From assembly GCF_003054245.1 (NCBI RefSeq), contig NZ_QBKR01000022.1:1-64000 (forward strand): a DNA stretch of 64,000 nucleotides, read 5' to 3'. The stretch comes from Melghirimyces profundicolus (GTDB taxonomy: Bacteria; Bacillota; Bacilli; Thermoactinomycetales; DSM-45169). Both the position numbers and the translations under genes were made by a program. The notes beneath the pieces are model-generated. The model did no database searches, was not told where the DNA came from, and was given only the letters and a program-made list of their open reading frames with translations. Each line of letters starts with the position of its first letter. The first letter of the stretch is position 1. Below, piece by piece: positions 37,425 through 61,709 of this stretch.

Positions 37425-37616
37425 TTAATCCGGCTTTTGTTTGCCTTTCAGCTTCTGAATCTCATCAAAGGGGATCAGACCCACTTTGGTCACATAAACT
37501 CGACCATCCTCAATGCGATAGGTGATGTAATCCCCCTCACGAACATCCAAAAGATCTTGGACCTGTTTGGGTAGGGTCACCTGATTTTTTGAACTGATTC
37601 GATTGACGTGATGCAT
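37425..37616 (-). CDS. AbrB/MazE-type DNA-binding protein, copy 1
   Basis: 63 residues, a swapped-hairpin SpoVT/AbrB domain: [38 protein letters not shown]. Start ATG 37616 (MHHVNR) was chosen because AAGGGGTGG precedes it and it aligns with MYHVYR of the copy at 61219; an ATG 9 bases earlier is possible. No MazF/VapC-type toxin follows, so it is probably the regulator of this cassette. Direct AGTAAGAA-like repeats lie upstream in both copies. Confidence 0.85.
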
Positions 37617-37714
37617 AAAATCCACCCCTTACAGGGATTTTTGGGATTCTTACTTTCTTACTACTATTTTATCATAAATTTCATCACATAAAGATTGAGC
37701 CCCCGACGAGATCG

Positions 37715-37922
37715 ACGAGTGCTTTTGTTTTAGATGCTGATTATAGGGAAGCCTGCCCAGACGACTGCAAGGAAGGACTGGAATTCGCCCTGAAAGACGA
37801 ACAGGAAACGGTAGACTTTTATCTTGATATCGCCGACAAAGCCAAAAACCGGCCATCCAAAAGCCTTCACCTGAGCGGCCCACGACGAACAAAACCACGC
37901 CGTCCGGGGACCACACACGTAA
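37715..37922 (+). pseudogene. Ferritin/rubrerythrin-like fragment
   Basis: The plus strand reads KEGLEFALKDEQETVDFYLD then IADKAKN, and further on, after an in-frame stop, AAHDEQNHAV. These are helices of a ferritin-like diiron family protein (E-x6-Y and DExxH-type ligands). No start codon, an internal stop and composition breaks on both sides show it is debris. It faces the AbrB gene head-on. Confidence 0.5.
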
Positions 37923-38063: not shown

Positions 38064-38615
38064 ATGAGCAGGAGAAAGCGGCAGGTCCGTCCCTATCTCA
38101 CCACCCGTTCCCTCCAACCAGAGAACCAGGAGACCCCGATCCGTTTTTTAAAAGAGGAAAGATCAGAATTCCTCTTTTTCCGAAGAAATCATTTTCCTTA
38201 TCCCGATCCGGACATTCAGTTCCCGAGCCTTACAGTGGAGGGGGGTGTCCACTGTCCCCGAGTGTTTCACCCCGGAGAACTTTTGTCCATGCCCGCCCGT
38301 TCGCTGAAGGTGGTTCTGGAATGTTCGGGAAACCAGCGGACCCGATTCTATCCCCCTGTGTTCGGGGAACAATGGGAAGAAGGGGCGATCAGCCAAGGTA
38401 TTTGGAGCGGGGTTCCCCTATCAGTTCTCTTGGAACGGACCGGATGGGCCAAAGAGGCCAAGGAAGTGGTCTTTGAAGGGATGGATCGGGGGAAGAGGAC
38501 CGGCATGGATAGGATACCGAAAGGACCTCCAATCCCTCCGAATGGCCCGCCGACCCGCCAAAAACCCTCCAAATTCACAAAATTGACTTGTATATGGAGG
38601 ATAAACAGGCACTAA
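38064..38615 (+). pseudogene. Sulfite-oxidase-like (YuiH-type) molybdoenzyme, truncated
   Basis: N-terminal about 150 residues of a sulfite-oxidase-fold molybdopterin protein: PIRFLKEERSEFLFFRRNHF, then VVLECSGNQRTRF with the molybdenum-ligating Cys87, and QWEEGAISQGIWSGVPLSVL. After KEVVFEGMDRGKR the sequence becomes unrelated and Pro/Lys-rich to a chance stop. Missing are the rest of the Mo domain and the dimerisation part. GGAAGGAG precedes ATG 38064, so it may still be translated into a non-functional fragment. Confidence 0.82.
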
Positions 38616-38788
38616 GTTCACTTCTTTTTCCTGTTCATCCTTTTAATCGCATATTTCTGAGTACAAAAGTGGTTTCAGAAGAACTTCGGAGGTCGACAAT
38701 TCCCTTGTGGGTCGAGCAGCGGATAAGAACGAATACCTCCCTATGGGCATAAAAATGTATAAATGACTTTCGCCCAGGAGGGATCATT

Positions 38789-39601
38789 ATGTCCGTAACA
38801 ACCAGTCATGCAAATGTAAGTGGTCATATGTCTTTAGTTCAGATCGTCCAGCATTGTCAGGTTGTCTGCGACCACATGGTCACCATGGTGGCTTCCATGC
38901 CCGATGCCGCCTTCCGCAGCAGACAACTCCGCTTGCTCCGGGATTGTGCCGACATCTGTGCGTTGACCGCCCAGATGCTGGCCCGATGCAGCTGTATCTC
39001 CAAACAAATGGCACTCCTCTGTGCCCACATTTGTGAACGATGCGGTCAGGAATGCATGAAATACCCGGACCCGCACTCCCAGCACTGCGCACAAGTCTGT
39101 CTACATTGCGCCTCTGTTTGTCGGGCCTATGCCAGTGGTTATGCAAATCGATTTAACCAAGAAGGCAATATAGAATTAATCGATTATGGAAGAAAACCGT
39201 TTGTTGTAAATATTAATAAAGCAGCTAAGCAAAATAATACGTTTCGTACCGCCTTATGGACAGGAGATCATTTACAAGTGACCGTGATGAGTATCGATGT
39301 TGGGGATGACATCGGTTTAGAGATTCATCCTACCGTTGATCAATTCTTACGTATTGAAGAAGGGCAAGGATTGGTTCAAATGGGTGATCGGAAAGATCAA
39401 TTGGATTTTGAAGCAGAAGTTTATGATGATTATGCCATCATGGTACCTGCTGGTACATGGCACAATTTAATCAATACAGGGGATACACCACTGAAACTTT
39501 ACTCGATTTATGCGCCACCTGAGCATCCTTTCGGTACTGTTCATAAAACGAAAGCAGACGCAATGAAAACTGAAGAAGGGGGTAGTCCGAGATACGTGTA
39601 A
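38789..39601 (+). CDS. Chimera: Cys-rich four-helix copper-binding protein fused to a cupin
   Basis: 270 residues from ATG 38789 behind AGGAGG. Residues 1-118 are a four-helix-bundle copper-storage-like domain (YhjQ/DUF326 type) with 14 Cys (23, 27, 53, 57, 67, 69, 78, 82, 85, 89, 100, 104, 107, 111). From about 121 a complete cupin begins (RFNQEGNIELIDYGRKPFVV; metal-site motifs LEIHPTVDQFLRIEEGQG and PAGTWHNLINTGD). Composition drops sharply in GC at the junction (about 39140). The last seven residues are encoded by a transposon end. Probably an accidental in-frame fusion; whether it is functional is unknown. Confidence 0.8.
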   Translation: MSVTTSHANVSGHMSLVQIVQHCQVVCDHMVTMVASMPDAAFRSRQLRLLRDCADICALTAQMLARCSCISKQMALLCAHICERCGQECMKYPDPHSQHCAQVCLHCASVCRAYASGYANRFNQEGNIELIDYGRKPFVVNINKAAKQNNTFRTALWTGDHLQVTVMSIDVGDDIGLEIHPTVDQFLRIEEGQGLVQMGDRKDQLDFEAEVYDDYAIMVPAGTWHNLINTGDTPLKLYSIYAPPEHPFGTVHKTKADAMKTEEGGSPRYV

Positions 39602-39614
39602 TATATACAGTTTC
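39578..39614 (+). repeat. Type A transposon end, copy 2 (solo)
   Basis: 37 bases beginning GGGGGTAGTCCGAGATACGT, left-end orientation, overlapping the 3' end of the cupin fusion gene and supplying its stop codon. About 30 further bases resemble the interior side of copy 1. Confidence 0.8.
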
Positions 39615-39794
39615 AGATGGGGGTAAATGGTATATTCTGAGATGGACGTCCAAAGGCAGGTAACATATTCAAACACAAGGAGCGGATTCTTTATGTCTCA
39701 CCCTTTATAAACATCTCCACGGTTCCCGATAACCCTTAACCGTACCGAAAAAAGAAAATTGTACGTTAAGAATTCCGGGTTTTTGGTCTAATAC

Positions 39795-42329: not shown

Positions 42330-42536
42330 ATGAATGTATCAGCAAAACAGTATGACTGGATTCGTTGGACCATGGAGACGGCGGTTCGCTGCACGCTCCG
42401 GGACGTCCGTATCCCGGCCGACCAGGCCGACGAGTTCACCCGGCTCCCACCCTCCGGCGACGTCGTGCACGGCTTCACCGCCGCGGCCTACCCCACAGAA
42501 CAGCCTCACTTCCCCGACCGGAAGGACCCGTCATGA
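42330..42536 (+). pseudogene. Truncated actinobacterial-like protein, C-terminal piece with local start
   Basis: GAGGAGG and ATG 42330 lie in AT-rich sequence; after about ten codons the composition jumps to very high GC (RWTMETAVRCTLRDVRIPAD, DVVHGFTAAAYPTEQPHFPD) and the frame ends in TGA overlapping the next gene's ATG (ATGA). Most likely the tail of a gene transferred together with the hydrolase below and joined by chance to a local translation start. No family recognised. Confidence 0.45.
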
Positions 42537-43099
42537 CCGACGTCATCGAGTTCCACCACGCTCAGGGACGGACGCCCGGCGTCCTCGCCTTCGCCGACAC
42601 GCTCCGCGCCGCCGGCCACCCGGTCGCGGTCCCGGACCTCTACGACGGAGCAACCTTCGACTCGCTCCAGGCAGGCGTCGACCACGCAGAGCAGGTCGGC
42701 TTCGACGAGATCATCGCCCGCGGCGTCACGGCCGCCGAAGACCTGCCGCCCGAGACGGTTTACATCGGGTTCTCGCTCGGCGTCATGCCTGCACAGAAGC
42801 TGGTGCAGACACGCACCGGCGCGAAGGCAGCCCTACTGATCCACTCCTGCGTGCCGACCGACCACTTCGGCTGCCCGTGGCCGCAGGACGTCCCGCTCCA
42901 GATCCACACCATGGACGGTGACGAGTGGGGCGACGTCGACATCGTTCACCAGCTCGCAGAGACCATCGACACCGCGGAGCTGTTTCTCTATCCCGGCGAT
43001 CGACACCTCTTCACAGACAGCAGCCTGCCCGACTACGACCAGAGCGCCGCGGCGCTGCTCACGCAACGCGTGCTGGACTTCCTCGACCGCGTCGGATAG
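42533..43099 (+). CDS. Dienelactone hydrolase-family protein
   Basis: A 188-residue alpha/beta hydrolase of the DLH type: VIEFHHAQGRTPGVLAFADT, PDLYDGATFDS, the nucleophile elbow region GFSLGVMPAQ (with Ser replacing the usual Cys), and GDRHLFTDSSLPDYDQSAA carrying the catalytic His. Probably hydrolyses small esters or lactones. Very high GC with actinobacterial codon preference (gac, gtc, ctc, cgc), an obvious foreign block whose edges are about 42355 and 43250. ATG 42533 overlaps the preceding stop. Confidence 0.82.
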   Translation: MTDVIEFHHAQGRTPGVLAFADTLRAAGHPVAVPDLYDGATFDSLQAGVDHAEQVGFDEIIARGVTAAEDLPPETVYIGFSLGVMPAQKLVQTRTGAKAALLIHSCVPTDHFGCPWPQDVPLQIHTMDGDEWGDVDIVHQLAETIDTAELFLYPGDRHLFTDSSLPDYDQSAAALLTQRVLDFLDRVG

Positions 43100-43141
43100 T
43101 TCCAGCAACCCCCGGTCGCTGACCACCGTGGAGGAACCCAC

Positions 43142-43243
43142 ATGGCACGTTTCAATGTCGCGAACCGGGGAACGCCCCGTCGAGTCCATCCCGGACAGGA
43201 AGAGGCAACACCTCTGTGGCTCTACACCCAGCCTGCCCCATGA
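43142..43243 (+). pseudogene. Possible 5' fragment of a transferred gene
   Basis: ATG 43142 after GTGGAGGAACCCAC opens 33 codons starting MARFNVANRGTPRRVHPG. The GC-rich block ends soon after. It may be the N-terminus of the next gene of the donor; too short to name. Confidence 0.25.
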
Positions 43244-53083: not shown

Positions 53084-53120
53084 GGGGTTAGTCCGAGATA
53101 CGTGTAATATATACCGTTAG
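53084..53120 (+). repeat. Type A left terminal inverted repeat
   Basis: Begins GGGGTTAGTCCGAGATACGT; pairs with 61610-61646. Confidence 0.88.
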
Positions 53121-53267
53121 ACTGATTATTTGTTCCAAATGTAAAATAATTGAATTTTATCCATTTGTACCGGAGTTTCTAGGGAAGAAAAACTTCAGGT
53201 TGAAGGGTATTCGGAGGAGGGTTTATGGCCTGTACAGACCAAATTAGAGGGATATATGGAGATGATT

Positions 53268-53302
53268 TGATGGGAGGGATACCAAAGTGGTATCCCTCCC
53301 AT
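53268..53302. terminator. Perfect 16-base hairpin beyond the transposase gene
   Basis: gatgggagggataccaa on one side and ggtatccctcccatc on the other, nearly loopless. It lies between the left end and the transposase stop (53339) and may stop minus-strand transcripts or insulate the transposon end. Confidence 0.55.
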
Positions 53303-53338
53303 CTCTTATTCCATCCCATCACCATAGACGAAGCCGAG

Positions 53339-55552
53339 CTATACCGACACCTCGAGGGGGAGACTTTCCGGAAAGATCAATTCCGGCTCTGGCGGTTCCG
53401 GGGCATTGTCCATATCGATGATATAGTCCCCGAAACGCTTGATATGACTGGTCATGTAGGGGCTTAGGGCGGCCACGGATTCGCTATCAAATCCGTAACC
53501 CTCCTTAGTCAACTCCCGCAACGCGGCGGTAAGATCCACGACGTTCTGAAAGATAACTGCGTTGGCCACCAGATCGTTGTACTTGATTGCCTTTTCCTGC
53601 TCTTCGGGATCGTTGTCGGCAATGACGCTCTCACCGCCAAAAAAGAGCCATTTGGAAAAGCCGTTATATGCTTCTGCCTTGTTCGTCGTGGCTGTGATTT
53701 GTTGGCGCAGTTCCAAATCGGAAATGTACTCGAGAAGAAACACGGTCCGGACCACCCGGCCCAACTCCCGGAACGCCTTGTATAACCGGTTCTTTCGGCT
53801 GTAGTTACTGAGTTTGCGAAGCAGCGTGGCGGAGGAGATTTTCCCGGCCTTGATAGAGAGTACGACCCGAAGGAGGTCTTTCCAATGCGTCTCAATGAGT
53901 TTCCAATCGATCGTTTCGGTAAACAATCCGTCAATATGTCGGTATCGAACATCCTCAAAGGGACGGAAAAACGTCCGATGCTTCAGGTTGCGGATCCGCG
54001 GCATTAGCTTAATCCCCAGCAGATGGGCCAATGCGAACACCGGCGTGGATTGCCCCTGGGTGTCGGCATGAACCGTATCCGGCTGGATATCGGACTCGTT
54101 TTTCAACAGGCCTTCGATGATGTAGACCGCCTCCCACACACCGCAAGGAATGAAGTGACTGAACAGGGCGATGTAGTTATCCGACACATGGTGGTAGGCG
54201 ATTCCGCCATATCCCCCGTAGCGAATGTGGTATTCGGCCAACAAGTTTTCCTCGTAGATGTCGTACTTGGTCCCGTCGGCGGCCGCCGTCTTGCCGCTTC
54301 CCCACAGTTGGGGAAGATCGAACCGGTAATATTCATTGATAACGTCCTTGATTGCTTGATCCAGCTTCTTTGCCGTGATGTGGCGTTGGTTCACGAATGA
54401 AAGCATCTTGGGAGTGACCAGTCCCCGCATGTGACGGGCAGCCTGGGCAGGTCCCAAGTTGCAACCGTAGGTGAAGGTATTGAGGATGTATCGTTCCGTC
54501 GGTTTTTCCAGCTTGGGATCGGAGCCGGACAGTGGTCCAAAATGACGGGTCCATCGGACCCAGTGCTCCACGTTGCACAAGATATCGAGGATGCTTCGCT
54601 CCGGCATCCGTTCGAGGATGAGTTGTTCCAAGTGCTTCTGGTCAGCTGTGGGATCTTTTGCCCGGACCTTTTTCAACTCGGGTTCGCCTTTTTCATTGAT
54701 CACCACCACATCGCCGCAGTCGGGATACTTACGGTCTACGGCCTGGCAGGTGCCGTTCATCCAGTCTTGTAAATGTTGGATAAACTCCCGTCCCGATTCG
54801 GGAAAGTCCATCTCATCCAGGTAGTCGGGTAGCAGAGGGGAGCATTCTTCCCAAGAAAGCAGTTGTTCCCGGTAATCGGCGAAATCATCAGAATCCTGGA
54901 TGCAGACATCTCCGGTTTTCAGTTCCGTCGCTAGGCAGGAAAAGACACACACTTCCAGTTGTCGGCGAGCAATCTCATAGCCGCCGACGCGCTTTTTGAC
55001 CCGGATGATCCTCTGCCATGCCTCTGGGGCGAACGATAGGTCCACCTCGTCCGGCAGCCAATCGCCTCGAAGGTTCCGGTGTTCTTTCACAAACTCCAAA
55101 GCCTGGATGAGTCGGCGATCCTCCGATGTAGAATCAAGGCGGAGTGCATCAATCACACGGAACAAAACCGAACGATGACTGTTCCTTCGAAAGAACTTCA
55201 GGATCAGGGGAAGGTAGTTGTTACCGTGGCAAGAAGCGACGGCTTCACAGTCGTTGAGGAGATCGGAGATGCCCCCGTGGGCGGCGAGAGTCGCTTTCAC
55301 AAGGCGGCCTGCTTCCGCGTCCTGGGGATCATCCTGTAAGGATTGCAGCACTTCCGTCAAGGTTGAAACCAGGGATTCCGTCCGCTCCCGGTGTTGCTCC
55401 CTCACTCGCTCCAATTCCTCTTTGCCGGCCTTATGGAGGCTTGCCATCCGTTTAATGAACAGTGTCCCGAGGTGATCCCGTGTCTTTGCTTGCCCCCGAT
55501 GCATCAGACAGAGGAGAAGGGTGATTCGCTTTTCCCGTGAAAAATCTTTCAT
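53339..55552 (-). CDS. tnpA: Tn3-family transposase, catalytic part (split)
   Basis: 737 residues holding the Tn3 DDE domain: Asp in TAAADGTKYDIYEENLLAEY, Asp in HADTQGQSTPVFALAHLLGI, Glu in TTNKAEAYNGFSKWLFFGGE. The reading begins at MKDFSREKRITLLLCLMHRG, which in relatives continues from ALDAREMKDF of the N-terminal domain; here that part is a separate ORF overlapping by 4 bases (ATGA). One missing G at the junction (about 55553-55558) explains the split. Both pieces could be coupled, but activity is doubtful. Confidence 0.9.
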   Translation of the reverse strand: MKDFSREKRITLLLCLMHRGQAKTRDHLGTLFIKRMASLHKAGKEELERVREQHRERTESLVSTLTEVLQSLQDDPQDAEAGRLVKATLAAHGGISDLLNDCEAVASCHGNNYLPLILKFFRRNSHRSVLFRVIDALRLDSTSEDRRLIQALEFVKEHRNLRGDWLPDEVDLSFAPEAWQRIIRVKKRVGGYEIARRQLEVCVFSCLATELKTGDVCIQDSDDFADYREQLLSWEECSPLLPDYLDEMDFPESGREFIQHLQDWMNGTCQAVDRKYPDCGDVVVINEKGEPELKKVRAKDPTADQKHLEQLILERMPERSILDILCNVEHWVRWTRHFGPLSGSDPKLEKPTERYILNTFTYGCNLGPAQAARHMRGLVTPKMLSFVNQRHITAKKLDQAIKDVINEYYRFDLPQLWGSGKTAAADGTKYDIYEENLLAEYHIRYGGYGGIAYHHVSDNYIALFSHFIPCGVWEAVYIIEGLLKNESDIQPDTVHADTQGQSTPVFALAHLLGIKLMPRIRNLKHRTFFRPFEDVRYRHIDGLFTETIDWKLIETHWKDLLRVVLSIKAGKISSATLLRKLSNYSRKNRLYKAFRELGRVVRTVFLLEYISDLELRQQITATTNKAEAYNGFSKWLFFGGESVIADNDPEEQEKAIKYNDLVANAVIFQNVVDLTAALRELTKEGYGFDSESVAALSPYMTSHIKRFGDYIIDMDNAPEPPEPELIFPESLPLEVSV

Positions 55553-56328
55553 TTCCGAGCATCCAAAGCTTTAGCCTGGGCAGCAAAATGATTCACCTTC
55601 GCCGGCGGGATCCCTTCCAGGTATGATCCTGCATCGCCGAAGGTGATCAACCAGGCCAAGTGATCTAACCGTTCCCGGATCTCTGATAGTTTGGGTTTCT
55701 TGGGTAGGTTTTTTAACCGGTTATAGTCACTAAAATGGGATTCCCCCCGTTCCAGCAGCTCCTCCAGCCGATGGATCTCCCGGTCATTTAGACGTTGGAT
55801 CACCTGTTCAAAAAAACCGTCGTTGACTGTTTTGCGGATATGTCGGGCCATCCGGTCCAAGGTGCTGAAGGCGGGCAGTTCAAAGGATTGTCGAATCAGC
55901 TCCGCAATAGCCACGTTAATTAGGTCTGCCGGATGGTCCATCACTTGGGCCGCCTTTTGCACCGCTGCCAGAGCGATGCGTTGTGCTTCCTTCCCATAGG
56001 ATTGGATTCCTCGGAATTTGCGGATGGCTGCCTGATGTTCATAACGGTTGCGGGGTTTATCATACCCAGGCACTGTGTCGGACTTGAGATTCATCCAAGA
56101 CCGAATATGATCGACAATCGGGTTGGGTACCTCTTCCAGATTGGGGAAATAACCCAGACGCTGCGAGGTCTTCAACAGAATCATGGCGTTGAGAAGATTC
56201 TGGGTTCCGCGGGCGATGCTGTACACAAAGCGGGCTTCGTCCTCCGTCGGTGTGTAGACCCGTTCCAGCTCTTTCTCGGTGTACGAGCGCTTGAGCCGAG
56301 GATAAGCGGTGCGTTCAATCGATGACAA
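55549..56328 (-). CDS. tnpA: Tn3-family transposase, N-terminal DUF4158 part (split)
   Basis: 259 residues of the DUF4158 DNA-binding domain that recognises the terminal repeats (ERTAYPRLKRSYTEKELERV, ARFVYSIARGTQNLLNAMIL, LKTSQRLGYFPNLEEVPNPI). It ends FAAQAKALDARK and stops where the domain should continue into the catalytic part. Sum of the two ORFs is about 990 residues, the normal Tn3 transposase length. Confidence 0.9.
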   Translation of the reverse strand: MSSIERTAYPRLKRSYTEKELERVYTPTEDEARFVYSIARGTQNLLNAMILLKTSQRLGYFPNLEEVPNPIVDHIRSWMNLKSDTVPGYDKPRNRYEHQAAIRKFRGIQSYGKEAQRIALAAVQKAAQVMDHPADLINVAIAELIRQSFELPAFSTLDRMARHIRKTVNDGFFEQVIQRLNDREIHRLEELLERGESHFSDYNRLKNLPKKPKLSEIRERLDHLAWLITFGDAGSYLEGIPPAKVNHFAAQAKALDARK

Positions 56329-56332
56329 CCGT

Positions 56333-56977
56333 TCATTCCCCCCTCATGGAGTGATTTAACCAACTGGAGGCGGGTTGATTAGTAAACATCATTTTTAAAC
56401 CGGCATTGATTAACACCACGGCGAGTAATCGACGAATCCCAATGCCCCCAACCCGACGGGTTCCCAGCCGTGTACCGATGATGCCACCGATCAGGGCGGC
56501 AACGGCAAAAAAGACAATTTCCCCCGGAATGTGCTGAACGCTAGATACGTGTCCTAATAGTCCGGAAACGGAGTTGACCAAAATAAAGGCAGCCGAGATC
56601 CCGGATGTTTTTTTGGCGTCGGCCCATCCTGTGAACAGAAGGAGAGGAGATAAAAAGATCCCGCCGCCGACCCCTGTCAGACCGGATAGGAAACCAATCC
56701 CCGTCCCGGAGAGATACGCCAAAGGAAGCGGTGCTTTTTTGAGCTCATTCTCTACCGTTTGTTTGTAACGCAACAAACGAAAAGCGGAGAAGAGTAGAAC
56801 CAGCCCCACCAACACCTTATATAGGGAAGTGGAGACCGTTAGGAATCCTCCAAAAAACGCAAACGGAATCGAGCCCAAAGCAAGGGGCCAAAAAGTGGAC
56901 CAGGAGAAAAAACCGGCGCGATAGAACGCAGCTACGAGGATGAATATTGAAAGTACCAGAATATCGGTGAGATCCAT
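56333..56977 (-). pseudogene. TauE/SafE-family exporter, N-terminally shortened
   Basis: 214 residues from ATG 56977 behind GGAGAAAGTAGG. The C-terminal repeat is complete (LAYLSGTGIGFLSGLTGVGG, SGISAAFILVNSVSGLLGHV, IGGIIGTRLGTRR), but the first repeat with the usual GxxGAGGG start is missing; the protein opens MDLTDILVLSIFILVAAFYR and enters at the middle of the family (TFWPLALGSIPFAFFGGFLT). TauE/SafE proteins export sulfite or sulfoacetate-type anions. Half-length forms exist, so a function cannot be excluded. Confidence 0.6.
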
Positions 56978-57006
56978 GATCTTCCTACTTTCTCCACCAG
57001 GGTGGG

Positions 57007-57975
57007 TTATTGCCATGCGATCTTTTCCACTTCCGCCTGGAGATCGGAACGGGTCGCCTGAACGTAAATCATGGTGGTGTCCAGGCTGTCGTGCCCCATG
57101 ATCTGGGCCAACCGGTGCAGCGGGGTCCGCTCGGCCATGACGTAACCGAACCGGTGCCGGAGATCGTGGGCACTCAACCCTTCCAACCCAGCCAGGCGCA
57201 TGTATTTTTGGATCAGGTGACGAAGGGCCCGCTCTCCCAGGCGCCCGCCGGTTTTTTCCGAACGAAACAGATAATCGTCACCCTGGGTGTCCTGCGTTGC
57301 CAAATATTCCTCCAACGCAGTTCGAATGGTGACATTGAGCGGGACCTCCCGCTGTTTGTTCCGTTTTCCGGAACGAACCATGAGGCGGCCGCTTCGTTTG
57401 CCGAGGACCACGTCCCGACACCGGAGGTCGCAGACCTCCATGGTCCGCAAACCCGTGTGCAGCATGAGCAGAATGATCGTCCGCTCCCGGATGGTTCCAT
57501 GACGTTGCACCGCCGCTACCAAGACCGCCTCCTCCTGATCCGTCATCTGCCGCGGACTGGTTTTTTCCGCTGCGACCAGTTTGACCGGCTGGGCAGGATT
57601 TAAAGGAACTACTCCTCGTTTAACGGCCCATTCAAAATAGCGCTTGATCGTGATCAACCGTCGGTTGATGGTGGCCGGCTTGAAGGAACGAACGGTTTGC
57701 ATGTACTCCCGATAACGAATCAGCGTCGGCGTGGTGATTTCCGACGGGTGAAAAACTTGCTCCTCCTCCTGGTAATTGTTCCACCCAGTTTCGACCCAAA
57801 CGGCAAAGTGACGTAAATCGCTGGCGTAATCACGGAGCGTTTTGGGGTTAAGGTCTTCATGGGTGGCCAAATCATCGATGAAACGATGAATCCACTCTTC
57901 GGCCCGATCGGAAACCGTGGGAGATCGACTCAAACCGATTCCCTCCTTTGGAATTTGACTTACATTATCGGACAT
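57007..57975 (-). CDS. tnpI: TnpI-like tyrosine recombinase
   Basis: A 322-residue phage-integrase-family recombinase. N-terminal SAM-like core-binding domain (residues 22-130), then the catalytic domain with Arg in LHTGLRTMEVCDLR, HDLRHRFG, and GHDSLDTTMIYVQ with the Tyr nucleophile. Tn4430/Tn5401-type transposons use such a recombinase to resolve cointegrates instead of a serine resolvase. Consistently, repeats of its candidate core site lie at its own start (57962-58065). Confidence 0.88.
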   Translation of the reverse strand: MSDNVSQIPKEGIGLSRSPTVSDRAEEWIHRFIDDLATHEDLNPKTLRDYASDLRHFAVWVETGWNNYQEEEQVFHPSEITTPTLIRYREYMQTVRSFKPATINRRLITIKRYFEWAVKRGVVPLNPAQPVKLVAAEKTSPRQMTDQEEAVLVAAVQRHGTIRERTIILLMLHTGLRTMEVCDLRCRDVVLGKRSGRLMVRSGKRNKQREVPLNVTIRTALEEYLATQDTQGDDYLFRSEKTGGRLGERALRHLIQKYMRLAGLEGLSAHDLRHRFGYVMAERTPLHRLAQIMGHDSLDTTMIYVQATRSDLQAEVEKIAWQ

Positions 57976-58065
57976 GATATTGTTAGCTTATCCGAAACAT
58001 TATCGGACATCAAGAACCAGTTTTCGGCGGAATTATAGCCGCTAATACTATTTAGCGGACATGAA
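57962..58065. other. Candidate internal recombination (resolution) site of the transposon
   Basis: ATTATCGGACAT occurs at 57964-57975 and 57999-58010 as direct repeats 35 bases apart, a related inverted TTATCCGAA lies between them, and TTTAGCGGACATGAA follows at 58050-58064. Such clustered motifs next to a tnpI gene match the internal resolution sites of TnpI transposons. It also holds the promoters of tnpI and khtT, so recombinase binding should be autoregulatory. Confidence 0.65.
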
Positions 58066-58085
58066 TATAAGGAGGAGGCCCACTC

Positions 58086-58583
58086 ATGGCTGATATTCGC
58101 GAGATCGATTTACCCGGAATCGGTCGTAAATTTCAAATCCATACCAACGAAGGCGAGAAACTGGTCCTCGTCATTCATGATGAGGATGGTAAAAGGGAGC
58201 TTTTTCATTTTGATTCCGATGACCCGGACGAAAGCATTTCGATGGTGACACTCAACGACTTGGAGGCCCGCCAGGTCGCCGGGATCTTGGGCGGCATGAG
58301 TTATAAACCCAAGGAGTTGGAAACGGCCGAGGTGACCTTGGATCAATTGCACATTGAGTGGTACAAAATCAAGCGAAACTCCCCGTACATAGGCAAGACC
58401 ATCGGAGAATTGAAAATCCGTCAATTAACCGGAGCCACCATCATTGCCGTCATAGAAAAAAACCGGAAGCAAACCATTACTCCAGGTGCGGATCATGTGC
58501 TTCAAGCAGACGCCACCCTGGTCGTGGCCGGTGAGAAAAAAAACATCAAGGCTTTCAAACAGATCCTTCAGGGGAGCGAATGA
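58086..58583 (+). CDS. khtT: KhtT, regulatory subunit of K+/H+ antiporter
   Basis: 165 residues. N-terminal KhtT domain (REIDLPGIGRKFQIHTNEGE) and a C-terminal RCK_C/TrkA-C domain from about residue 85 (IKRNSPYIGKTIGELKIRQL, TPGADHVLQADATLVVAGEK). KhtT is the cytosolic gating subunit of KhtU and binds c-di-AMP in B. subtilis. Start ATG 58086 behind AAGGAGGAGG. It overlaps nothing and is 3 bases from khtU. Transposon-borne. Confidence 0.9.
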   Translation: MADIREIDLPGIGRKFQIHTNEGEKLVLVIHDEDGKRELFHFDSDDPDESISMVTLNDLEARQVAGILGGMSYKPKELETAEVTLDQLHIEWYKIKRNSPYIGKTIGELKIRQLTGATIIAVIEKNRKQTITPGADHVLQADATLVVAGEKKNIKAFKQILQGSE

Positions 58584-58586
58584 TCG

Positions 58587-59783
58587 GTGGACGAGCACAT
58601 CCTCTTTGAATTGGGGGTTGCCATCGCTCTTGTCGCCGCAGCTGGACTGATTGCTTACAAACTCCGGTTTTCAGTCGTCCCCTTTTACATTATCGTGGGG
58701 ATGCTGGTGGGGCCCCATGCTCCCCAACTGGGTCCGGTGGATCTGCGTTTTATTCAAAGCGATGATTTGATCATGATTATGGGGCAGATGGGGGTTGTTT
58801 TCCTCCTGTTCTACCTCGGCCTGGAGTTTTCCGTCGATCGACTCCAGAAAGCCGGTCGGTCGATTCTCGTGGCGGGAAGTATTTACCTTGCGATCAACTT
58901 CTCTTTGGGTCTACTGTTCGGATGGATCGGAGGCTTCTCATTCAAAGAGATTTTGGTAGTCGCCGGGATTACCACCATCTCCTCCAGTGCCATCGTAGCC
59001 AAGGTATTGATGGACCTCAAACGAGCTGGTAATCCGGAAACAGAGTTAATCTTGGGCACTACCCTGTTTGAAGATGTGTTCCTCGCCGTCTATCTTTCGA
59101 TCCTCTCCGGTTTAATCTTAAGCGGGGCAACCTCCTTTGGCGGAGTCCTTCTGTCTGCTCTTCTCGCTTTAGGATACATGCTGTTGATCCTTTTCATCGG
59201 TCGGAAAGCCGTGCCGCTCCTCAATCGAGCGTTGAATATCACATCCAATGAAGTGTTTATTCTCGTGATTTTTGCTCTGTTGCTCCTGATTGCAGGGTTT
59301 TCGGAAACCATTCATGTCGCTGCAGCTATCGGGGCGCTTCTTGTCGGCCTCATCATTGCGGAGACGGAGCATATGAAGCGAATCGAGAAAATGATCCTCC
59401 CGTTTCGTGATTTCTTCGGAGCGCTGTTCTTTTTCAGCTTTGGCCTGTCCATCGATCCCACGACCTTGGGTGATGCTCTCTGGTTGTCCTTAGGTGCCGT
59501 CCTGGTTACTTTGATAGGCGCTAATGTAGCTGGATTGTTGGCTGGGCGAAGTGCTGAACTGTCATCGAAGGCATCGACGAACATCGGATTGACACTGATG
59601 GCCCGAGGGGAATTCTCGATCATTGTGGCCAATCTGGGCAGTGCGGGTGGATTATCCTCCATTTTACAACCGTTCACCGCCCTTTATGTGCTGATCATGG
59701 CCATGTTAACGCCAATACTCGCTAAAGAATCCAAACGAATCTATCAGGGGATCCGTAAGATTTCCGGTGTAGGGAAACGGTGA
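58587..59783 (+). CDS. khtU: KhtU, K+(cation)/H+ antiporter of the CPA2 family
   Basis: A 398-residue, 12-helix cation:proton antiporter from GTG 58587. VPFYIIVGMLVGPHAPQLGP and QMGVVFLLFYLGLEFSVDRL are CPA2 signatures, and GLTLMARGEFSIIVANLGSA lies in the ion-binding helix region. With KhtT it should export potassium against protons, used in B. subtilis under alkaline, salt or methylglyoxal stress. The KhtS leader protein of Bacillus is absent. Its position as passenger of a Tn3 transposon is unusual. Confidence 0.9.
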   Translation: MDEHILFELGVAIALVAAAGLIAYKLRFSVVPFYIIVGMLVGPHAPQLGPVDLRFIQSDDLIMIMGQMGVVFLLFYLGLEFSVDRLQKAGRSILVAGSIYLAINFSLGLLFGWIGGFSFKEILVVAGITTISSSAIVAKVLMDLKRAGNPETELILGTTLFEDVFLAVYLSILSGLILSGATSFGGVLLSALLALGYMLLILFIGRKAVPLLNRALNITSNEVFILVIFALLLLIAGFSETIHVAAAIGALLVGLIIAETEHMKRIEKMILPFRDFFGALFFFSFGLSIDPTTLGDALWLSLGAVLVTLIGANVAGLLAGRSAELSSKASTNIGLTLMARGEFSIIVANLGSAGGLSSILQPFTALYVLIMAMLTPILAKESKRIYQGIRKISGVGKR

Positions 59784-59831
59784 AAATAATTCTTCCTGGG
59801 GTACTGCCGGGAATTTAGATAAAGTGTGAAA

Positions 59832-59860
59832 AGATCGGAGGATCCCCTCCGATCTCTATT
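59832..59860 (+). terminator. Terminator after khtTU
   Basis: agatcggagg / cctccgatct hairpin with ATCC loop then CTATTT. Confidence 0.65.
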
Positions 59861-59939
59861 TGAAGACTTGCTCCTACCTGTGGCGGCAAAGGCAATGGTA
59901 AGATAAAAAAGAATCAGTCTGGAGAGGAGTAACGATGGA

Positions 59940-60092
59940 ATGGTACATAAAAAAGTCAAACGTCCAAAAAAAGAAGCCGCTCTTCCTTTTGAAGCGGTAT
60001 TAGCCCGGGATCTGAGAAAAATTGTATGGTGGTCGATGATTTCCTTCGGTACTGCGGGAATCGCTTATTTATTGGTGGAATTTTTTCGTTAA
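59940..60092 (+). CDS. Small membrane protein
   Basis: 50 residues from ATG 59940, 10 bases after GGAGAGGAG. Basic N-terminus (VHKKVKRPKKEAALPFEAVL) and one C-terminal transmembrane helix (VWWSMISFGTAGIAYLLVEF). An ATG five bases upstream starts a shorter, unrelated frame. Such single-span peptides often accompany transporters, so it might assist KhtU or YitT; that is inference. Followed by a strong terminator. Confidence 0.6.
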   Translation: MVHKKVKRPKKEAALPFEAVLARDLRKIVWWSMISFGTAGIAYLLVEFFR

Positions 60093-60102
60093 ACCCCAAT
60101 GC

Positions 60103-60146
60103 AGAAACCTTCTTTTCAGGGATCTAAGAAGGTTTCTTGCTTTTTC
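60103..60146. terminator. Terminator after the small membrane protein gene
   Basis: agaaaccttctt / aagaaggtttct hairpin, then TGCTTTTTCTT. A sequence-related hairpin follows the homologous cassette at 35677-35720. Confidence 0.8.
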
Positions 60147-60205
60147 TTCCTGTCCATTAAGAGTAAGAGACTTCTGGAAATGGAAGGAGTTTTTCCTTTG
60201 CTGCC

Positions 60206-61036
60206 TTAATGGATATCCCGCTTCTTGAAGCGCCCCCCCTTGACATCGTGGATATTCCCAATAGCCAAAAAGGCACCCGGATCCATTTCTTCCACGATCG
60301 ATTTCAGCTTGGATTCCTCCAAGCGGGTGACAACACAGAAAATGACTTTTTTGTCTTCTCCGGTATATGCCCCTTCCCCTTTCAGATAGGTGACTCCCCG
60401 ACCCAAGCGGTGTAACAGAGCGTCCCCAATCTCTTCATGTTTGTCACTGATGATCCAGACCGACTTCGTTTCATCAAACCCTTCAATGGTGAGATCGATC
60501 ATTTTAAACGCGATGAAATAAGCGATCAACGAGTACATGGCACGGTCCCAACCAAAGACGAAACCGGCACTCCCCAGAATAAACACGTTGATAAACATGA
60601 CGATTTCACCCACAGAAAAGGGGAGTCGTTTGTTGAACAGAATGGCGAGGATCTCCGTTCCGTCCAAGGATCCTCCATAACGGATAACCATTCCAACTCC
60701 GATGCCCAGGATGACCCCGCCAAAGACCGTGGCCAGCAATGGGTCATCGGTTAGCGGATCCACCGGATGGAGAAGAAAGGTTCCAATCGAGAGAACCAAA
60801 ACCCCAAACAACGTGGAGAGGGCGAAGGTCTTTCCGATCTGCTTGTAACCGATAAAGAAAAAGGGAAGGTTGAGGAAAAACAGAAACAGTCCCAACGGGA
60901 GGCGGCTTAAATGGGAAAAGATGATCGAGAGACCGACAATCCCCCCGTCAATCACTTGATTGGGAACGAGAAAGATTTCCAAGCCAACGGCCACCAGGAT
61001 CTCTCCCAGCAAGATCATGATCGTTCGTTTCAACAC
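60206..61036 (-). CDS. YitT-family membrane protein in the transposon
   Basis: A 276-residue YitT protein: [43 protein letters not shown]2179 part with [40 protein letters not shown] and [20 protein letters not shown]. Intact form of the gene whose deleted copy is at 35852. Its 5' end overlaps the frame of a truncated YnfA gene because a deletion joined the two, so its natural promoter region is missing and translation may depend on the AbrB-YnfA transcript. Confidence 0.9.
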
Positions 61037-61208
61037 GTTGCTTTTGGTTAGCTTTTAGGGTGGCAATGACTCCATACAGGAACAGAACAAATCCCCCCAT
61101 GAGTCCCCAAACTGCCGGCTTTCCTTCCCGTAGCCACAACCAGATGAGATAACCTCCTCCAATCTCGGCAAGCCCTGCAAGGAGAAATAATCCAATCGCT
61201 TTCAGCAT
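60948..61208 (-). pseudogene. YnfA/UPF0060, C-terminally truncated copy
   Basis: Identical in plan to the protein at 37087 for about 51 residues ([38 protein letters not shown]), then broken at about 61055 where YitT upstream sequence follows in another frame, giving an unrelated 35-residue tail. The deletion removed the YnfA C-terminus and, by comparison with the other cassette, a second YitT gene. Confidence 0.85.
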
Positions 61209-61218
61209 GGTTTTCCCC

Positions 61219-61410
61219 TTATTCCGGCTTTTGTTTGTCCTTTAGCTTTTGAATCTCATGAAAGGGAATCAGGCCCGCCTTGGTGACGTAAACCCGACCA
61301 TCCTCGATTTGATAGGTGATATAATCCCCCTCACGAACTTCCAGAAGGTCTTGGACCTGTTTCGGTAAGGTTACCTGATTTTTCGAACTGATGCGGTAGA
61401 CGTGGTACAT
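61219..61410 (-). CDS. AbrB/MazE-type DNA-binding protein, copy 2
   Basis: 63 residues, differing from the copy at 37425 by a handful of substitutions ([40 protein letters not shown]). Start ATG 61410 behind AAGGAG. First gene of the cassette; AGTAAGAAAGTAAG repeats just upstream resemble those before copy 1 and may be its own operator. No toxin partner visible. Confidence 0.87.
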
Positions 61411-61609
61411 AAACCCACTCCTTAAAGGGATTCCTGATTTCTTACTTTCTTACTATATTATATTACAAAATCTATTTGAAAGTACTCTAATAGATAGAGG
61501 CTCGGAAGGATTCCCCCCGAGCTTCCGCGTTTACAGTTATAAATTGCTGGCCGTAAACCAAAAAGCCGCTTCCTATAGTCAGAAAAGCGACTTTTCAAAT
61601 AATACCATT

Positions 61610-61646
61610 TGAAACCGTATATTTTACACGTATCTCGGACGAACCC
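61610..61646 (-). repeat. Type A right terminal inverted repeat
   Basis: Minus strand begins GGGGTTCGTCCGAGATACGT; outer end at 61646. The only inverted type A end in the window. Confidence 0.88.
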
Positions 61647-61709
61647 CACGTAGAGAAAGGATCGCTTCACGATCATCATGAAATCAAAATCAATGTCCGA
61701 TAAAGCCGA

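Follow-up and report, generated by a model that had tools for sequence, protein, structure and literature searches.

Within the 64,000-nucleotide stretch of Melghirimyces profundicolus DNA analysed here (the window), a single in-frame gene joins a cysteine-rich four-helix bundle of the copper storage protein (Csp) type to a cupin of the BH2720 type. We found no earlier description of a Csp-cupin fusion in the open-licence papers that our literature search covered. On balance, we lean towards reading the product as a two-module copper protein of late sporulation whose gene is driven by sigma-K. The features on which the argument draws are as follows; genomes and loci are given by G and L numbers.

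38729-38751, + strand: sigma-K-like promoter, AC-N17-CATA, with CATA at 38748-38751, 38-41 nt before the ATG
38776-38781, + strand: ribosome-binding site AGGAGG, from comparison of the upstream sequences of homologues
38789-39601, + strand: Csp-cupin fusion gene, 270 amino acids, ATG start, with fused homologues
38834-39139, + strand: Csp-type (DUF326) four-helix bundle, residues 16-117, from Pfam, BsCsp3 5fig (E 1.5e-11) and 6wkt (Z 12.9)
39143-39166, + strand: joint, residues 119-126 (ANRFNQEG), with ANRF and QEG similar to the ferritin-like domain's end and to the linker in the ferritin-bundle cupin L008 (HANRFSSLSSYQEG)
39176-39574, + strand: cupin domain, residues 130-262, from Pfam, 2oa2 (E 1.5e-65) and the invariant His180/Gln185/His225
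39578-39615, + strand: inverted-repeat end of Tn3-family type, which gives the fusion its last codons (GGSPRYV) and its stop

Two folds in one conserved chain

That two folds, a 14-Cys DUF326 bundle and a Cupin_2 domain, share one in-frame chain, as the original prediction held, is borne out both by Pfam (DUF326 at E 2.6e-5 and Cupin_2 at E 3.7e-11, each above its family cut-off) and by an AlphaFold2 model. All 14 cysteines lie in residues 1-118 and the remainder of the protein has none. The closest solved sequence to the N-terminal half is the Csp3 5fig, to which 6wkt (BsCsp3) is identical in sequence, and the closest to the C-terminal half is BH2720 (2oa2). In the model (mean pLDDT 80, pTM 0.58) helices at residues 16-35, 40-67, 72-89 and 95-121 precede a barrel that starts at residue 153, with pLDDT per ten residues of about 62-82 in the bundle and 94-98 in the barrel; at this pTM the relative placing of bundle and cupin is unreliable. 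Structural alignments, run against the chains that Foldseek ranked highest, gave Z 20.9 with BH2720 (0.7 Å over 114 residues, 71% identity) and Z 12.9 with BsCsp3 (rmsd 2.6 Å over 105 residues, 36% identity). The N-terminal domain combines the modelled four-helix fold with sequence homology to solved Csp3s, two of the properties expected of a Csp, and the cupin half has the barrel, the high identity and the His-Gln-His triad of the BH2720 type.

Intact fusions are present in seven of the 42 genomes of the order, namely that of the window (G000) and, with decreasing identity to it, G027 (Paenactinomyces guangxiensis, 91%), G007 (Paludifilum halophilum, 87%), G008 (86%), G024 (67%), G018 (62%) and G021 (56%), the last a genome that is 67% complete. 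They span three families, the window's own included, and the same 42 genomes hold a frame-broken copy in G014 and scraps in G004. The six further intact fusions are the outcome of a search that had been suggested with the original prediction, and they tell against its view of the gene as a possible snapshot of domain shuffling, since a complete fusion recurs across three families. An assembly error at the joint, named there as a way in which the prediction might fail, is excluded by fused homologues in independent assemblies, those of P. halophilum and P. guangxiensis among them; on the same comparison of sequences, a recent age for the chimera is refuted. A wider contig scan with close-relative patterns found fusions at two of 67 loci, both in these two species, and a search for the bundle through the class matched 159 of 398 genomes, where, among the 30 matches listed and examined, only the loci of this order run on into a cupin.

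Both halves look to be under purifying selection: between the window and G007, dN/dS is 0.072/0.349 = 0.21 in the N-terminal half and 0.045/0.332 = 0.14 in the cupin half. The N-terminal halves of G024, G018 and G021 have DNA identities of 54-66% to the other fusions and to each other. Among the called ORFs of 20 standalone Csp loci, in five of which the caller missed the Csp ORF itself, no Csp and cupin stood as adjacent separate genes. When the eight fusion loci (the broken copy included) were compared at the level of neighbour clusters, neighbour families were shared only within three genomes of one genus, so that no operon supports a role.

Origin of the halves and the mobile DNA

The contrast in GC between the halves, from which the original prediction argued, is real (53.4% in the N-terminal half against 39.6% in the cupin half, GC3 57% against 30%, with the split placed after residue 126), and different origins are probable. 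The joint near residue 119 keeps frame, as had also been claimed, and DNA similarity to Csp-less cupins begins abruptly at 39156 (codon 123). In a Csp tree made without domains under 85 residues and without duplicate copies of fusions, the bundles of the eight fused copies, the broken one included, formed one clade against 31 standalone proteins (99/97.9). The trees were made without L090 and without duplicate sequences. In a cupin tree with 86 rows, the fused cupins fell into two starred clades, window/G007/G008/G027 and G024/G018/G021, the second of which grouped with three tail cupins; with 29 rows the split stayed and neither clade was starred (94/87 and 91/72). The trees thus do not show a single clade of the seven fused cupins, but an AU test did not reject one (p 0.22 and 0.30). 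Two separate fusions are a conceivable origin of the two cupin clades.

The DNA of the window's cupin is 91% identical to the fused cupin of G007 and 89% identical to two ferritin-bundle cupins of another family, L008 of G040 and L009 of G023, whose regions have a GC of 36% and 40%, respectively. The 89% identity across families suggests that the window's cupin half was probably swapped in, and the donor would probably have been an AT-rich ferritin-bundle cupin gene. The window's linker, YANRF-NQEG, is similar to HANRF-SSLSSY-QEG in L008, which would fit a transfer that brought with it the last part of the ferritin domain; as HANRF is also found in the tail cupin L016, the donor cannot be told from the linker by itself. 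Since the fusion genes of the window and G027 are 95% identical, compared with about 70% DNA identity at recA, the gene has probably moved between families. The G027 copy is itself a mosaic, with a promoter region like that of G007 (91-98%) and a cupin (97-100%) and transposon end (89-94%) like those of the window. The best reading of these comparisons would be that the fusion is old and that, in the lineage of the window, its cupin half was exchanged at a later time.

The original prediction further had the last codons and the stop come from a transposon end at 39578, and this proved correct. The 24-bp core of the repeat at 39585 (at most three mismatches) occurs four times in the genome, always within the window, with no occurrence in 100 shuffles of the window, and two of the copies, at 53084 and 61647, are oriented towards each other and enclose a Tn3 transposase domain (53339-55552), a DUF4158 and a tyrosine recombinase. 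We assigned the end at 39578 to the Tn3 family as an inverted repeat of about 38 bp that starts with GGGG, as Tn3-family repeats do, and that is common to an element with a Tn3 transposase. Because its outer GGGG edge faces the fusion gene, the gene lies outside the element, and we rejected it as transposon cargo. No partner was identified for the end at 39578, and the flanks at 53084 and 61647 do not repeat as a 5-bp target duplication would. The end occurs at the same codon in G008 and G027, and G007, G024, G018 and G021 stop without it; given that four fused homologues lack the repeat, the fusion did not arise through the transposon end. In the window's lineage the end has replaced the C-terminus. 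Among the window, G007, G008 and G027, the cupin tree places G008 deepest, yet G008 has the end and G007, which branches inside, does not, so that loss or recombination is needed.

The surroundings of the gene hold several other elements. The Tn3-family unit at 53084-61647, with Tn3 transposase and DUF4158 in two ORFs and a tyrosine recombinase, carries as cargo a TauE-type exporter, a TrkA_C protein, a Na/H exchanger and a YitT protein. A repeat of 178 columns, 84% identical between 37501-37678 and 61295-61469, covers the start of a small ORF and has one copy inside that unit. A truncated sulfite-oxidase-like gene (38064-38615, Oxidored_molyb 1-100 of 169) lies directly before the fusion gene, and a patch of about 60-70% GC at 42350-43150, in a window of 54% GC, contains an ORF at 42365-43099, as if from a high-GC donor.

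Promoter signal, front ends and putative metal sites

Ahead of the ORF the ribosome site that had been predicted is present (AGGAGG), and further upstream GGCATA stands at -37 to -42 in all seven fusions (shuffled mean 0.09, largest 1). The cores of sigma-K elements are AC and CATA. The two-part pattern AC-N16-18-CATA precedes 50 of 87 cupin-family genes, with 2.3 expected, in counts for which starts were chosen by ribosome-site score, some wrongly, the rows are related sequences and the motif is short. By front end, it was found before 3/7 fusions, 12/22 ferritin-bundle cupins, 32/51 tail cupins (among which the ferritin-bundle rows L043, L078 and L089 were counted) and 3/7 short N-termini, against shuffled means of 0.12, 0.61, 1.25 and 0.29. 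Only three of the seven fusions, closely related to one another, have the -35 AC at the right distance, the window with AC-N17-CATA. As the pattern has 45 matches on the two strands of the 64 kb, a two-part match is common; its conservation is not. Among standalone Csps, it precedes five of the eight nearer the fused ones (two of the five almost identical) and one of eight classical ones. Mapped sigma-K promoters are reported to have their -35 and -10 elements about 15 bp apart (PMC517825). Taken together, the signal before the fusions, which we regard as the best of the clues to function, points to use late in sporulation.

The gene for sigma-K itself, sigK, lies about 570 nt downstream of the fusion gene on the same strand in G008, and its matches lie elsewhere in the other six fusion genomes. 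It is full length in G008, G027 and G024, in two pieces in G007 and likewise in two partial pieces in the window's genome (G000:C24:14786-15211 and G000:C1:9047-9316, covering profile positions 3-145 and 138-227, below the family cut-off), where a skin-like insertion is possible.

In 21 of the 42 genomes of the order the cupin has a strong match, at E 1.3e-64 or lower; each of these genomes has one, and none has two. Its front end is a Csp bundle in seven, a ferritin-like bundle in nine and a short Tyr-rich tail in five; the cupin, being the same behind all three, is the constant part. Tyr-rich tails are regarded as coat-like. The ferritin bundle gave rubrerythrin matches in seven of 20 members (E up to 1 allowed, best 1.1e-9), and a model of it (pLDDT 73, pTM 0.45) matched bacterioferritin at Z 17.4. 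The di-iron ligands are largely lost (first His in 9/20, second in 7/20), so that a working di-iron site in these cupins is not supported; the loss hints that the bundles may be structural.

The window's Csp bundle keeps all 12 cysteine positions common to six of six standalone relatives and has two more, and it should, judging from these residues, hold Cu(I) on its 12-14 thiolates. Five of the 12 core positions are cysteine in all seven fusions, five in six, one in five and one in four; the window protein, G007 and G008 have all 12 and G027 has 11. Total counts of 10 in G024, 11 in G018 and 8 in G021 suggest that part of the family may be losing the ability to bind copper. In the cupin, His180, Gln185 and His225 are invariant in all 30 aligned rows and align with His41, Gln46 and His80 of XcTcmJ, which are given as its zinc ligands in a report that also describes 2OA2 as metal-deficient (PMC2954225). 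The Cu-oxidase_2 profile has no match in G000, G007, G008 or G027, so that the known Csp3 client was not found in these four, and matches in the other three fusion genomes; for the lineage of the window, this leaves the cupin as a possible client, or no client at all.

A third protein may connect the two parts. In B. subtilis, Csp3 and yhjR are reported to be under sigma-K control and in one operon, with YhjR a coat protein and Csp3 supplying Cu(I) to the spore laccase CotA, and the same report describes BsCsp3 as not required against Cu toxicity in that species (PMC9484137); yhjR is also listed among coat genes elsewhere (PMC3533761). In two of six csp3 loci examined, those closest to BsCsp3 (89 and 71%), the gene in front of csp3, on its strand, is yhjR-like; in the other four no called ORF beside csp3 is yhjR-like. 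The product of this gene has a Tyr-containing start and a ferritin bundle similar to the one in the cupins (matches of 59.7 and 57.0 bits, with E-values calculated for a set of 24 ORFs), and when used as the query it finds the bundle of six of the nine ferritin-bundle cupins of the order (E 5e-9 to 2e-4). Separate full-length yhjR relatives also occur in the order, one of them in the window's genome (G000:C23). Csp and YhjR thus meet in an operon, a YhjR-like bundle and the cupin in one chain, and Csp and the cupin in another, a triangle that would make the three a late mother-cell module, pointing to the spore coat. A yhjR-like fragment, broken by frame and stop, lies at 37747-37907, 0.9 kb before the fusion gene on the same strand. 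Given that it is 87% identical over 163 columns to the genome's own intact gene at G000:C23 and that no such fragment turned up when the six other intact fusion loci were searched in the same way, we rejected it as the relic of an operon and treat it as scrap.

Proposed role and known systems

Our model is as follows. The fusion protein would act late in sporulation, in the mother cell, where sigma-K would drive its gene. Its constant module would be the BH2720-type cupin with the His-Gln-His metal site, and its exchangeable front module the Csp-type bundle, predicted to bind Cu(I) through its thiolates. Like Csp3 of B. subtilis, the bundle would take up Cu(I) while in the cytosol; the cupin would bring the protein's copper to the forming spore coat, there to be stored or passed on, the recipient being either the cupin or an enzyme of the coat.

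Three other explanations have to be weighed. The bundle could be a built-in metallochaperone for its own cupin, passing Cu(I) along the chain to the His-Gln-His site; the cupin would then be a copper enzyme. CCS acts likewise for SOD1 in trans. The invariance of the triad, the retention of the core cysteines in the window and the lack of a Cu-oxidase_2 match as client in four of the seven fusion genomes are in keeping with this idea, as is the zinc reported at the same triad in XcTcmJ (PMC2954225). However, the family includes cupins that have no Csp, that same source describes 2OA2 as metal-deficient, no substrate is known for the cupin, and at a pTM of 0.58 a contact between the domains is not predictable, so we consider an in-chain transfer unlikely. 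We think it rather improbable that the bundles are modules of coat assembly or oligomerisation with vestigial metal ligands, the fused Csp storing no useful copper: the degenerate di-iron ligands of the ferritin-bundle cupins, the fall to 8 cysteines in G021 and the coat-like Tyr-rich tails would fit, but the window, G007 and G008 keep every one of the shared cysteines and G027 all save one. Finally, the gene fragments around the gene, the step in GC and a Tn3-family end in frame are what a recent, non-functional chance chimera made by mobile DNA might leave behind. Conservation of the fusion in three families, dN/dS well under 1 and a conserved promoter motif make such an origin hardly credible.

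A bolder form of the two-module copper protein, which we offer as a speculation with the odds against it, would have the bundle serve in cis as a Cu(I) reservoir for its own cupin, and the cupin family as a platform in the late coat for Csp (copper) or YhjR-like ferritin (iron) bundles. If true, this would be a bacterial cytosolic enzyme with a copper store in the same chain. The Csp3s raise the question of what copper kept in the cytosol is for, and one client, CotA, has been reported (PMC9484137); a Csp tied to a cupin is a second candidate partner, in genomes without a Cu-oxidase_2 match. The triangle also gives a testable role to the coat protein YhjR and to a structural-genomics cupin, BH2720, for which the literature searched yielded no reaction or function.

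BH2720 of Bacillus halodurans (PDB 2OA2) is the closest known counterpart of the cupin, sharing 71-72% identity over the barrel and the invariant His-Gln-His. In its other close relatives a Tyr-rich tail or a ferritin bundle takes the place that the Csp has in the window's cupin, and since the solved stretch of 2OA2 is numbered 158-271, BH2720 itself probably has an N-terminal domain. The counterparts of the bundle are the Csp3s (BsCsp3/YhjQ and MtCsp3; DUF326), with which it shares the four-helix bundle and cysteines placed on the helices, BsCsp3 being the best solved match; control in sporulation, as reported for B. subtilis (PMC9484137), would be a further likeness. In contrast to characterised Csp3s, for which 18-19 cysteines are reported (PMC5171941), the window's bundle has 12 core cysteines (14 in total) and is fused to a cupin, and it falls among standalone relatives with a common PDxxSxxC loop, apart from the classical Csp3s. 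Seven DUF326 relatives of the fused bundle (L198, L200, L201, L202, L204, L205 and L207, all of genus code g33) have long, acidic, Pro-rich N-terminal extensions.

The csp3-yhjR operon of B. subtilis is a further close known system, in that the cupin family carries the same two types of bundle; we equate the YhjR-like protein with B. subtilis YhjR by the position of its gene next to the 89% Csp3 match rather than by a YhjR record. In Bacillus the parts are separate proteins of one operon, whereas the window has Csp and cupin in one chain, and the intact yhjR-like gene of its genome is at a different site.
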